Origin: Clostridia bacterium
GTDB lineage: Bacteria > Bacillota > Clostridia > Christensenellales > Aristaeellaceae
Assembly (NCBI GenBank): GCA_017550035.1
Contig: JAFYLS010000092.1
Span: forward strand, 1 to 64,000
Reading direction: 5' to 3'
DNA: 64,000 nt
Made by a program: the position numbers and the translations under genes. Below, piece after piece: positions 350 through 49,718 of this stretch (the stretch's first letter is position 1; each line of letters opens with the position of its first letter). The notes under the pieces are model-generated. The model was not told where the DNA came from and searched no databases. It saw only the letters and a list, made by a program, of their open reading frames with translations.

Positions 350-708
350 AAGGCCCCCTTGTTGAAAGGGGGCTCCCGCGCAGCGGGTGGGGGATTGGTT
401 TTCTTCTATATATTGTAATGAGGTGTCGAAATGTCGATCCGCAGTTTTTCTCCGGTTTCCGGAGAAAAACGTAAACCTTCTTCAAAAAAGGAGCCGAGAG
501 AGCGAGCTCTCTCGCGTCCTTTTATTGAAGAAGAAGGCGCAGCGGCGCAAAGCGCCGGCTGCACCGGCGGATCGGGCGCCGTGCCGTGCCCGGACCCGGT
601 TTCGCCCAAGTTGGCATAAATAAACACTCCATCCCACGACATGATGGATGTATGAAACCAATCCCTCAGTCACCTTCGGTGACAGCTCCCTTTCAACAAG
701 GGAGCCTT
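350..708. repeat. MITE-like segment with inverted arms and internal hairpins
   Basis: The left arm (350-402) and right arm (654-708) are inverted copies of one another. Read outward from the core, each goes GAAACCAATCCC, a short tight hairpin (CCCGC-tgc-GCGGG-type on the left, GTCACC-ttc-GGTGAC on the right), then a CCCTTTCAACAAGGG hairpin. The core has a perfect hairpin at 444-470 (GTTTTTCTCCGG…) and a long one at 477-533 whose outer arms CTTCTTCAA/TTGAAGAAG and inner CGAGAGAGC/GCTCTCTCG both pair. Near 598-640 is a B-like box pair in plus orientation (GTTTCGCCC … ACTCCATCCCACGAC). No transposase and no convincing gene are present in the 763-base gap 173-935. Confidence 0.55.
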
Positions 709-775
709 CAATTCCTCCGCCGCTTCTTTTCGCTCATATTGGCGCAAAGAAAAACGCCGCGCCTCGGCAAGTAAC

Positions 776-935
776 ATGTCGGGGGACGGCGTTTTCATTT
801 ATTCAAGTTAGTCGAAAATGGCTGCCGGCACTGCCGGCTCGGGAGACGGAGTGTTTTTTGATTCGATTTGGTCGAAATGGAGAGGTCCAGGAGGCTTAGC
901 CTCCTGGTAGGGTTCCAAGGGGCAAGGCCCCTTGG
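776..935 (-). repeat. Hybrid A/B hairpin element abutting the PII gene stop
   Basis: On the minus strand, directly after the TAA of the PII-like gene, comes hairpin CCAAGGGGC/GCCCCTTGG (915-935), spacer AACCCTA, hairpin CCAGGAGGCT/AGCCTCCTGG (887-907), then CTCCATTTCGACC and CACTCCGTCTCCCGAG (to about 841). A second B unit follows immediately: hairpin GCCGGC-agt-GCCGGC (about 824-838), CCATTTTCGAC, and CGCCGTCCCCCGACATG (to 776). This joins A-type double hairpins to B-type tails. Confidence 0.65.
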
Positions 936-5981: not shown

Positions 5982-7120
5982 CGCGCCGGGGCGGTGCGCT
6001 TTTAGCCGTCACGCTGACGGCCTTTTTGTGTGCCCTGTCCACGGGCAGCCGGCTTTATTATTGCATTGCGCTGTGCTTTTTGCTGGTTCTGGCAACGGGG
6101 CTTGTTTCTCTGCCTTTGATGAAGCGTTTGATCCGGGTGGAATGTACGCTGTCCCCCTATAGCGTCAATCGCGGGGAAAGCGCCAAATTGCAGATCCGTA
6201 TTGTCAACCGCTGTTTGTGGCCGCTGAAATCGCTCTGTGTGCAGGTGCGTATGGGCGATGTGGTGACCGAGCGTCAGGTAAAGCTTTTTCCTATGCGGGA
6301 AAGCAGCCTTACGGTGGAACTGCCTGGTGTGCATGTGGGTGCATTTCTGTGCGGTGTGGAAGGCGCTTTTGCTGAGGATATATTTGGTGTGGTGAAGGCA
6401 AGCATCCGTCATGATGAAAAAGAGATGCTTCTTTCTCTTCCCCTTTCCTTCCCGGTGGAGGAAATCACTTTTTCCCCCGGCGATACGGGCAAGGCCGCCC
6501 TCACCCGGGCCCAGGAAGACTACACATCCCCCGAAGATGTGCGCGCCTATATCCCCGGCGATGCCATGAAGCGCATCCACTGGAAGCTTTCCTCCCGCAA
6601 AGGAGAAATGCTGGTGCGCCGCTACGAAACGCCCGCCCCGCCCGATACGCTGATTCTGGTGGATCAGCGTGCGCCGCAGCATGAAGAAACGGAAAAGGCC
6701 CTGTATCTCAGGGATGCGGTGTGCGAAACGGCGGTTGCGGTTGCAGATATGCAGCTTCGCGATCAAAGCCCCGTCCGCGCGCCTTTTTACGGGCGGTATG
6801 CCAATGAATTTGCTGCCGATCAGGCAGTGAACGTGAATTATCTCAAGGAAATGCTGGCGCTGCAGCCCTTTGACGGGCAGGAGGATTTTGCCCGTACGCT
6901 GCAATTGGAACTCAGGCGCATGGGGCGCACGGGCGCGGTGATCGTGATCACCACATATCTCACGCCCAATGTAGTGGAAGCCATCAGCCGCATCCGGCGC
7001 ATGGGCCCCCATGTGCGTTTGTATCTGGTTTCCTTTGACCCTGAAAACGAGACGCTGCAGCCCTTTGTGGGGCAATTGCAGCACCATCTGGTGGAGGTTT
7101 GCTATGTCACGCCCGCTTGA
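5978..7120 (+). CDS. DUF58 domain protein, membrane anchored
   Basis: A 380-residue protein with two N-terminal membrane helices (about residues 7-45), an extracytoplasmic-like beta region, and the DUF58 core with its signature YIPGDAMKRIHWKLSSRKGE near residues 188-207, followed by a vWA-like Rossmann fold (DTLILVDQRAP). DUF58 proteins are partners of MoxR ATPases and transglutaminase-like proteins, forming a conserved three-gene module of unknown exact role. Starts on the ATGA overlap with the MoxR stop; its 3' end overlaps the next gene by 17 bases. Confidence 0.9.
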   Translation: MTRRGGALLAVTLTAFLCALSTGSRLYYCIALCFLLVLATGLVSLPLMKRLIRVECTLSPYSVNRGESAKLQIRIVNRCLWPLKSLCVQVRMGDVVTERQVKLFPMRESSLTVELPGVHVGAFLCGVEGAFAEDIFGVVKASIRHDEKEMLLSLPLSFPVEEITFSPGDTGKAALTRAQEDYTSPEDVRAYIPGDAMKRIHWKLSSRKGEMLVRRYETPAPPDTLILVDQRAPQHEETEKALYLRDAVCETAVAVADMQLRDQSPVRAPFYGRYANEFAADQAVNVNYLKEMLALQPFDGQEDFARTLQLELRRMGRTGAVIVITTYLTPNVVEAISRIRRMGPHVRLYLVSFDPENETLQPFVGQLQHHLVEVCYVTPA

Positions 7121-13441: not shown

Positions 13442-13486
13442 AACCCCGTCGCCCGACATGCTGCTTGCCGGATGACGGGGTTTTTG
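13442..13486 (+). terminator. Terminator of the TetR-type regulator
   Basis: ACCCCGTC and GACGGGGT arms with a 23-base loop region that can pair further, then TTTTTG. Confidence 0.8.
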
Positions 13487-47004: not shown

Positions 47005-48018
47005 TTACAGCAGTCCGTCGTAGGCCTTCTGCGCATCGATGCCGAAAGCAGCATCCCCGTTTTCTTCGGATGCGGCAGGATAGTTGGGGTGATACACCCG
47101 GCGGTCCAGCGACCAGATTTTTTCGGAGAAGGCGCCGGCGGGCGTACGCTTGACCACCGCTTCCATTTCGTTCATCTTGGCGTCCATGTCGTCGATCATG
47201 TGCAGCATTTCCGCTTCGGGGAACATGGGCGGCTTGGGAGAGCCGAATTCGGGCACGGCATGATGGCTGATGACCATATGGGAAAGCAGCACCACGCATT
47301 CGTCTCCCGCAACGCCTGCATTCTGGGCAGCCGTGCGCACCTGCGCCACGCCGTCCACCAGATGGCCAAGCAGAATGCCGTCCCGGGTGTAGTCCGTCAC
47401 ATTGCCTGCATCGTCCGATACCATTTCGATGGTCTTGCTCAGGTCATGGGCAATGACGCCGGCGCAGAGCAGATCCCCGTTCAGGAAGGGGTAAAGGGGC
47501 AAAAGCGCTTTGGCGGCGCGGAGCATGCTGGTGGTGTGGTGCAACAGACCGCTGCGCTCTGCGTGGTGCAGACGCTGTGCTGCGGGGAAATAGAGCAGCT
47601 TATCGCCCGTCATGCGAATCAGTTCCCGCATCAGTTTTTTGAGCGGTTCCCACTGCATGTTTTCAATGGTATCCTGAATTTCCTTCAGCATTTTTTCGGG
47701 CTTTTCGGGTGCACAGGGCATCAGCAGGGAAAGGTCCGCATCGTCATCATCCTGCTTATCCCGCATGCGCTCCACACGCATCTGCAGCCGGCCGTTGTAT
47801 TCCTGAATGGTGCAGCGCACTTTTACCACGCTGCCCACCTTGGGCGGATTGACAGAGCCGTCCCACATTTTGGCGTTCAAATCGCCGGATTTGTCGCACA
47901 GCGTCATATCCAGATACTTGCTGCCGTTGGAGGAGGTGCGCTGTTCGGCCATGCGCACCAGAAGAAAACCTTCAAAGCGCATGTCCTTCTGCAGGGAGGA
48001 AACAGGAAGCTGATTCAT
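47005..48018 (-). CDS. yhaM: 3'-5' exoribonuclease YhaM-like HD-domain protein
   Basis: A 337-residue protein matching YhaM: an N-terminal OB fold (SKYLDMTLCDKSGDLNAKMWD), then an HD phosphohydrolase domain with AERSGLLHHTTSML, the HD in GVIAHDLSKTIE, and LLSHMVISHH. YhaM degrades RNA 3'-to-5'. Start ATG at 48018. Upstream in the same direction comes dnaB with a 344-base hairpin-rich gap. Confidence 0.88.
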   Translation of the reverse strand: MNQLPVSSLQKDMRFEGFLLVRMAEQRTSSNGSKYLDMTLCDKSGDLNAKMWDGSVNPPKVGSVVKVRCTIQEYNGRLQMRVERMRDKQDDDDADLSLLMPCAPEKPEKMLKEIQDTIENMQWEPLKKLMRELIRMTGDKLLYFPAAQRLHHAERSGLLHHTTSMLRAAKALLPLYPFLNGDLLCAGVIAHDLSKTIEMVSDDAGNVTDYTRDGILLGHLVDGVAQVRTAAQNAGVAGDECVVLLSHMVISHHAVPEFGSPKPPMFPEAEMLHMIDDMDAKMNEMEAVVKRTPAGAFSEKIWSLDRRVYHPNYPAASEENGDAAFGIDAQKAYDGLL

Positions 48019-48059
48019 GGAATGTAAGTACCTTTCTGACAGTAATATTGAAAAAATAA

Positions 48060-48362
48060 CAAACAGATCGTGTGACGGAGAGCCTCTTTTCACACGAGCA
48101 GGTCTACATAAAAATCCGCAGCGGCGGCATGTACGCCGCGAGGAGAAATTTTCAGGAGGCGAGCTTGTCCCGCTGGATGAAAATTTCATTCCTTTCAGAT
48201 TTTGCGGCCGTGGCGATGCCACAGCAAAATCTGCAAAAAGCGAACGAAAGCCCGCTTTCGTTCGGAGGCGCTTAAGCGCCATGGTTCCACGGAAGCAGCA
48301 GGCCGCGGGACGGCGCCGGATGGCGGTCAATGCGGTCGAAATGGGGGCCGGGCACTGCCCGG
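48060..48362 (-). repeat. Chain of six to seven hairpins between dnaB and yhaM
   Basis: Read on the minus strand from the dnaB stop: CCGGGC-agt-GCCCGG (48362-48348, B type, then CCCATTTCGACC), GGCGCTTAAGCGCC (about 48280-48267), CGAACGAAAGC/GCTTTCGTTCG (about 48264-48241), AGATTTTGC…GCAAAATCT with inner GTGGC/GCCAC (about 48234-48198), GAAATTTTC/GAAAATTTC (about 48188-48146), GCGGCG/CGCCGC (about 48141-48121), and CGTGTG/CACACG (about 48099-48070). No gene is convincing here. Confidence 0.6.
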
Positions 48363-49718
48363 TTAGTCTTGTACCAAGCCGCCGCCTGCCAGGTTGTCAA
48401 ACAGCGTGTATTCGCCCAGCCACGCCACCTTGATGGTGCCCAGAGGGCCGTTACGCTGCTTGGCCACGATGACTTCGGCCACGTTCTTTTCTTCGATGGT
48501 GTCATCGTAGTAGGCTTCGCGGTGCAGGAACATACAAACGTCGGCGTCCTGCTCAATAGAACCGGAGTCGCGAAGGTCGCTCAGCATGGGTTTTTTTACG
48601 GCACGCTGCACGTTGGCACGGGAAAGCTGAGCCAGCGCGATGAGCGGAACCTTCAGCTCCAGCGCAATGGCCTTCAGGTTACGGGAAATTTCGCTGACTT
48701 CCAGCTGACGGTTTTCCACCTTGCCGTCGGCCGCCATCAGCTGCATGTAGTCGATGACGATCAGGTCAAGGCCCTTGTCCATCATCAACCGGCGGCAGCG
48801 GGAACGGACCTGGGAAGGGGTCAGACCGGCGGTATCGTCAATGTACACATGGCTGGCGGACAGGGGGCCAAGGCTTCGCGCCAGTTTCACCCAGTCTTCA
48901 TCGCGCAGCGTACCCTGACGCACGGACTGCATGTTGACCCTGGCATCGCCGCAGAGCATACGCAGTGCGATCTGCTCGCGGGGCATTTCCAGCGAAAACA
49001 CGGCAATGCGCTTCTTTTTCAGCGCCGCGTGGGTGGCCACGTTGATGGCGAAGCTGGTTTTACCCATGGACGGGCGTGCGCCGATCAAGATCAGTTCGCC
49101 GCCGTGAAGGCCGGTGAGCAGATTGTCCAGATCGTAAAAGCCGGTGGGCACGCCGCTGACGCCGCCCTTGAGCTTGGCATATTCTTCGATCTGGGCGAAG
49201 GTGTTGAGCAGCACCTCGCTGATGGGCTTGAGCGTATCCGCGCCCGTGCGGCGCATGGCAATATCAAAAATCTTTTTTTCGGCCTGGTTGAGAATGACGG
49301 GCAGGTCTTCCTCCTGTGCAAAGGACATTTTTTCAATGTCCCTTCCCGCTTCAATCAGGTGACGCAAAGTGCTCTTTTCCTGCACGATGCGGATGTAGTA
49401 GCGCACGTTGGCGGTGGAAGGTACAAACTGGATCAGGTCGATCAGGTATTCCACGCCGCCAATGCCCGTCAGGCTGCCTTTTTTGCTCAGCTCCGCATCC
49501 ATGGTGACCAGGTCCACCGCCATGCTCACACGGTTCAATTCCAGCGCGGCGTTGAAAATGGTCTGATGGGCAGGGGTAAAAAAGTCCTCGGGCTTGAGGT
49601 TTTCGGCCGCTGCCATCATGGCGGAAGAATCCTGCATGATGGCGCCCAGGACACTGCGTTCGGCATCCAGATTATGGGGCATCTGCGTGCGCTGCAGCAT
49701 GTAAGCGCTTTCGCTCAT
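48363..49718 (-). CDS. dnaB: Replicative DNA helicase
   Basis: A 451-residue DnaB/DnaC-type hexameric helicase. An N-terminal helical domain (MPHNLDAERSVLGAIMQD) precedes a RecA-like motor with Walker A GARPSMGKT, Walker B LDLIVIDYMQLM, and ALAQLSR. It unwinds DNA at the replication fork. It follows rplI by 53 bases, the classic Firmicute rplI-dnaB pair. Its TAA is the first part of a family B hairpin element. Confidence 0.97.
   Translation of the reverse strand: MSESAYMLQRTQMPHNLDAERSVLGAIMQDSSAMMAAAENLKPEDFFTPAHQTIFNAALELNRVSMAVDLVTMDAELSKKGSLTGIGGVEYLIDLIQFVPSTANVRYYIRIVQEKSTLRHLIEAGRDIEKMSFAQEEDLPVILNQAEKKIFDIAMRRTGADTLKPISEVLLNTFAQIEEYAKLKGGVSGVPTGFYDLDNLLTGLHGGELILIGARPSMGKTSFAINVATHAALKKKRIAVFSLEMPREQIALRMLCGDARVNMQSVRQGTLRDEDWVKLARSLGPLSASHVYIDDTAGLTPSQVRSRCRRLMMDKGLDLIVIDYMQLMAADGKVENRQLEVSEISRNLKAIALELKVPLIALAQLSRANVQRAVKKPMLSDLRDSGSIEQDADVCMFLHREAYYDDTIEEKNVAEVIVAKQRNGPLGTIKVAWLGEYTLFDNLAGGGLVQD

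Follow-up and report, generated by a model that had tools for sequence, protein, structure and literature searches.

Hairpins between dnaB and yhaM: a probable copy of a small mobile element that enters genomes at terminator stem-loops

The hairpin array between dnaB and yhaM

The window, the whole stretch of 64,000 nucleotides analysed here, carries dnaB and yhaM on the minus strand with an array of hairpins between the two genes (Table 1). Inspection of sequence and fold recovered every stem named in the original prediction for 48060-48362, and the array is confirmed as real. It surpassed shuffled controls on both strands: across 48020-48362 the minus strand folds at -129.7 kcal/mol compared with a shuffled mean of -105.9 kcal/mol (z -4.66; none of 100 shuffles was as good), and the plus strand reached a z of -5.32. 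An element within the array is also present between dnaB and yhaM in the sister species, where it lies directly behind the dnaB stop codon and the stretch 48282-48362 is missing. The array had been taken as one unit; the element proper covers about 183 nt (~48099-48281, on the minus strand and in the sense of dnaB), and the hairpin on the dnaB side at 48326-48362 (CCGGGCAGTGCCCGGCCCCCATTTCGACCGCATTGA, minus strand) belongs to a second interspersed repeat, which matches the same genome at more than ten other places. This second repeat, which here separates the dnaB stop codon from the element, is missing at the locus in the sister species. The dnaB side of the array also holds the stem CCGGGCAGTGCCCGG at 48348-48362.

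Table 1. Features of the dnaB–yhaM locus and modules of the window copy
Feature	Position	Strand	Basis
dnaB, upstream gene	48363..49718	-	ORF of 451 aa; relatives by tblastn; stop codon 48363-48365
Stretch between dnaB stop and element	48282..48362	-	outside element; absent in sister species
Module 1, short stem GGCGC/GCGCC, GGCGCTTAAGCGCC	48268..48281	-	sequence; counterparts in other copies
Module 2, long perfect stem of variable sequence, CGAACGAAAGC/GCTTTCGTTCG	48241..48264	-	fold; differs in other copies
Module 3, two-storey stem CAGATTTTGC..GTGGC/GCCAC..GCAAAATCTG, conserved loop UGU..ACGGCC	48196..48233	-	covariation
Linker AAAGGAAT, conserved	48188..48195	-	alignment A1
Module 4, A/T-rich stem GAAATTTTCA/TGAAAATTTC	48145..48187	-	covariation
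Module 5, UCCUCG-stem-CUGCGGA; GCGGC/GCCGC, outer UCC/GGA	48115..48144	-	conservation, covariation
Presumed 3' tail ..GACCTG	48099..48114	-	sequence; weak, tail profile 0.2, not above chance
Last hairpin TCGTGTGA/TCACACGA	48067..48098 (stem 48068-48097)	-	fold
yhaM, downstream gene	47005..48019	-	ORF and context

Copies of the element are about 180-260 nt long and comprise five or six hairpins in a fixed order: modules 1, 2 and 3, the linker AAGGAAU, modules 4 and 5 and often a variable hairpin, module 6. The last hairpin of the window array may represent module 6 or else be native to the locus. The loop of module 3 takes another form in genome G007 and its kin; module 4 contains a UCC/UCC internal loop, an inner stem with a G.U pair and an (A)CAAG loop; and module 5 is the most widely conserved module of the element. 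One copy (L286) has an extra multi-hairpin insert nested in the module 4 loop. In the window copy CTTTTTG follows module 2, and no conserved T run was found after any module across the copies compared, which rules out module 2 as a general terminator. In two other copies the first hairpin consists of the last gene codons, the stop codon and their inverted copy (L098, 1425-1455, GAGGAGGGC-TAAAAC-GCCCTCCTC; L120, 1475-1500, AAGCTGTAAC-CA-GTTACAGCTT), a hint of snap-back copying.

The supposed likeness of the array to positions 444-560 proved superficial. The covariance model of the element has no match in that stretch, which possesses its own closing stem, and kinship was ruled out. Positions 430-610 (plus strand) hold a hairpin array of a different interspersed family (z -9.5), with the closing stem CGATCCGC/GCGGATCG and variable stems, present at about eleven places in the same genome and at least 13 in the sister species; the copies viewed are not placed behind stop codons. 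A further motif, GTCCCCCGACATG, occurs at 775-787 (minus strand) and 13448-13460 (plus strand), is overrepresented in the window (seven occurrences versus 2.0 expected from shuffles, with two mismatches) and is also found in the flanks of element copies L003 and L027.

Occurrence of the element and its filled and empty sites

A search of the window's own genome with the region returned two more long copies (94% over 122 nt and 82% over 163 nt), and the covariance model identified four clear copies and, next to one of these, a weaker and partial match. A search of 60 relatives added copies from G001 (the sister species), G007, G012, G022 and G057. The model matched 76 of 150 genomes of the family and 28 of its 50 genera, often many times per genome, and its matches extend to further families within the order; among 397 genomes from elsewhere in the phylum it gave one weak match. 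The named dnaB relatives obtained by tblastn are uncultured Clostridia, several of them from ruminant gut and some labelled Christensenella or Christensenellaceae. A core-pattern search of IMG/VR retrieved three contigs with four copies in phage late operons, all four in sense, behind major head, tape-measure, portal and major tail genes. One of these contigs (L219) carries two copies in a single late operon (2262-2368 and 6967-7096), behind the portal and major tail protein genes. Blastn against annotated phage and plasmid collections returned no match to the element. No Rfam 15 family reached the gathering score over the window element or 20 further loci, and relaxed thresholds brought nothing credible either. 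Neither the element nor duplicated terminators are described in the open-access literature compared, which included the main text of a human-microbiome survey with thousands of candidate RNA motifs (PMC8040213), where the element does not appear. The element, carried by many Clostridia of the gut and a few of their phages, is apparently a family undescribed so far.

dnaB and yhaM abut in distant relatives and are separated by the element in both congeners; in a more distant genome, apparent modules 1-3 of another sequence stand behind dnaB. Further filled and empty orthologous sites come from two genera, in genomes that are mostly drafts and with terminators that are predicted. The pgk-tpiA, VanY, recA, pfkB and obg sites are filled in one congener and empty in the other, and in the filled alleles the element begins 0-1 nt behind the stop codon. 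Empty alleles of pgk, VanY, recA and pfkB have about 12-27 nt between stop and terminator, and for pgk, VanY and recA this terminator is found downstream of the element in the filled allele. ychF is followed by a whole copy here and by a deletion remnant in the congener, and groES-groEL, oppB-oppC and other sites are filled in G007 and empty in its congeners. Near-identical copies lie at contig ends in several genomes.

The search for a mobilising gene found none. Among the copy-bearing genomes scanned, Y1_Tnp is present in G007 and absent from G000, G001, G011, G012, G030, G092, G141 and G173; a Y1 transposase as partner was ruled out by its absence from most of these genomes. A candidate composite transposon at L122, where two inverted copies surround a long ORF, was rejected by eye, as the ORF resembles a repeat-rich surface-type protein and no transposase.

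Position behind genes, flanking stem-loops and covarying stems

According to our own codon-usage gene caller, a rough tool, the upstream gene is co-directional in 62 of 84 copies. In 58 same-strand copies, phages included, the first hairpin follows the stop codon at a median distance of 4 nt, and at 10 nt or less in 52. The ten copies from the window's genus all lie in sense; copy-rich genomes are mixed, and their antisense copies score on the covariance model as well as the sense ones. The upstream genes are diverse and include ychF, obg, recA, a pfkB-type kinase, a VanY-type peptidase and methionyl-tRNA synthetase. This sense bias and tight spacing behind the stop codon would also be expected of a cis-acting RNA useful to the host, with the array protecting the upstream mRNA at its 3' end or setting a processing point that uncouples the next gene, and mobility being secondary. 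Such a role, which is compatible with a mobile element and does not exclude one, draws further support from the uniform sense orientation in the window's genus and behind phage late genes, and from internal loops that are conserved and G.U pairs that are fixed on the sense strand. However, presence at most sites varies between congeners, no function is common to the upstream genes, antisense copies fit the model equally well in copy-rich genomes, and insertion at terminators would by itself produce a sense bias with no benefit needed. We consider a primary cis-acting function possible, if unlikely.

Flanking direct repeats scoring at least 16 were detected in nine of the 106 copies with both flanks, compared with none of 315 mismatched flank pairs. 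The repeat of L027 is a module 2 stretch; the other eight copies (L029, L060, L061, L278, L282, L283, L286 and L295), of which seven come from genus g12 and one from g7, are each bracketed by a terminator-like stem-loop that is specific to the locus and 18-32 nt long. The upstream stem-loop runs into the element and the downstream one into a T-rich tail in seven of the eight, the T run being absent from L295; both neighbour genes of L029 are called on the other strand. Seven of these bracketed copies measure 250-256 nt between the repeats and one, with a nested extra module, 295 nt. Their ends are common, CTGGGCATCGACAAAG.. and ..TTGTTGATGATCTG, except for the tail of L060, and a hairpin directly follows the tail TTGTTGATGATCTG in nearly all high-scoring cases. 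No terminal inverted repeats were evident, end complementarity being at shuffle level in seven of the eight and one match above it in L282, and no frame between the repeats exceeded 98 aa. Stem-loop duplication is not seen in phage copies or in those of the window's genus; in that genus, either the upstream duplicate was lost or insertion differs.

The duplications also bear on whether the element is an ordinary BOX-like repeat that inserts at random and is spared by selection between a stop codon and a terminator or ribosome-binding site. The life style would be that of BOX and RUP, which are small, structured, polymorphic and co-transcribed with their neighbours (PMC3049150), and insertion does the least harm in the space that follows a stop codon. 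Random insertion does not, however, predict the duplication of exactly one stem-loop, terminal inverted repeats are missing, and the element always starts immediately behind the stop at pgk, VanY, recA and pfkB despite the longer spacer offered there. This explanation is therefore distinctly doubtful.

The fold is maintained by paired changes. The first alignment showed changes on both sides in 19 of 33 pairs, with few pairs broken. For 90 distinct matches, 96% of cells pair and 30 of 33 pairs changed on both sides, counts that lean towards the model because the alignment was fitted to it. None of 500 shuffles attained any of five covariation measures, sliding the partner by one column lowered pairing from 96% to 46-55%, and slid-structure controls overall reached 33-55%. 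The covariation thus goes beyond shuffles and slid controls, as in a structured RNA; a folded single DNA strand would leave the identical signal, and action of the element as RNA is a candidate role. The suggestion that the array might be a third family or a structured RNA was borne out insofar as the family is distinct and its structure is kept by covariation; what it describes is a dispersed, modular and probably mobile element rather than a local RNA. Neither of the refuting outcomes set for that suggestion, folding no better than shuffles or a lack of conservation in relatives sharing the dnaB-yhaM order, was observed.

G.U pairs account for about 0.5% of cells, two fixed G.U positions set aside, and identical whole modules recur at different loci, such as module 2 behind ychF and obg, so that many of the double changes probably arose when whole hairpins were replaced and not step by step. 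Stems could accordingly be kept by a mutational process, either quasipalindrome correction by template switching or hairpin replacement by recombination between copies, and not by selection on shape, which would account for the near absence of intermediate states, G.U or mismatched, on the way between G-C and A-U pairs as well as for the shared module 2. It would not keep the asymmetric internal loops, the linker and the hairpin order, all conserved across families of the order, and we judge it improbable. A local regulatory RNA or attenuator of a dnaB-yhaM operon, to which the location on the strand of both genes and the CTTTTTG of the window copy might point, is hardly credible given the occurrence of the element behind many unrelated genes and between other gene pairs, the lack of an Rfam match and the lack of a conserved T run behind any module.

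Proposed insertion at terminators and comparison with known systems

Dispersed copies with defined ends, presence or absence at orthologous sites, stem-loop duplications, the bias in position and sense, covarying stems and shared modules, all read from sequence, suggest that the array is probably one instance of a mobile element, non-coding and non-autonomous, which enters at terminator stem-loops and thereafter forms a 3' UTR. The element would settle immediately 3' of genes, at or beside an intrinsic terminator and mostly in sense, and the eight bracketed copies, with the arrangement stem-loop, element, stem-loop with T run, may be taken as the freshest. Cuts at both feet of a terminator hairpin that is extruded or exposed by transcription would leave a stagger of one stem-loop, the fill-in of which would duplicate the stem-loop. 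An enzyme acting in trans would move the element, and its shape may be kept since it must fold for recognition or copying. Because a stem-loop stands on both sides, we propose that the element is transcribed as the 3' UTR of the upstream gene while termination persists. Template switching of replication at the hairpin could yield the same duplication trace. A bolder version, which we put forward tentatively, is that the insertion machinery reads hairpin shape, enters any intrinsic terminator, duplicates the whole stem-loop of whatever length or sequence and preserves termination, making the element a transcribed 3' UTR module that phages take up too; it may move via a folded single-stranded intermediate.

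The element is a small structured repeat that is spread over several families within one order and is also present in some phages; its shape is kept while nearly every stem position changes. If structure-guided terminator insertion is true, it would provide a further route, beside group IIC introns, into transcripts without harm to host genes. Its sites offer ready material on how hairpin arrays behind stop codons alter operon expression, and the element itself is a lead towards a putative mobilising enzyme.

Group IIC introns insert beside the stem-loops of intrinsic terminators, oriented with transcription, and stem-loop duplication is not expected of them. The element shares their preference for terminators but differs in its size of about 250 nt, in having no reverse transcriptase and in matching no Rfam intron, with no family at gathering score for the window and the 20 further loci. 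With MITEs it has in common that it is short, non-coding and multi-copy and varies in presence between related genomes; unlike them, it has neither terminal inverted repeats nor a short fixed target duplication. REP/BIME sequences are likewise palindromic repeats behind genes, presumed non-autonomous and served by a REP-associated Y1 transposase (PMC3733652). The element is a much larger ordered array, and the cognate Y1 transposase is missing from most copy-bearing genomes, namely the eight listed above, and present in G007. BOX elements of Streptococcus pneumoniae have terminal inverted repeats as in an insertion sequence and are nearly confined to pneumococcus and its close kin (PMC3049150). 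Like BOX, the element is small, non-coding, modular, highly structured and polymorphic, with many intergenic copies and expected co-transcription. It is set apart in its features by the lack of inverted-repeat ends, by modules 1-6 of other sequence, by its occurrence in several families and phages and by the stem-loop duplications. In its way of working the element is comparable to BOX and other small structured repeats, but it falls outside the BOX group.
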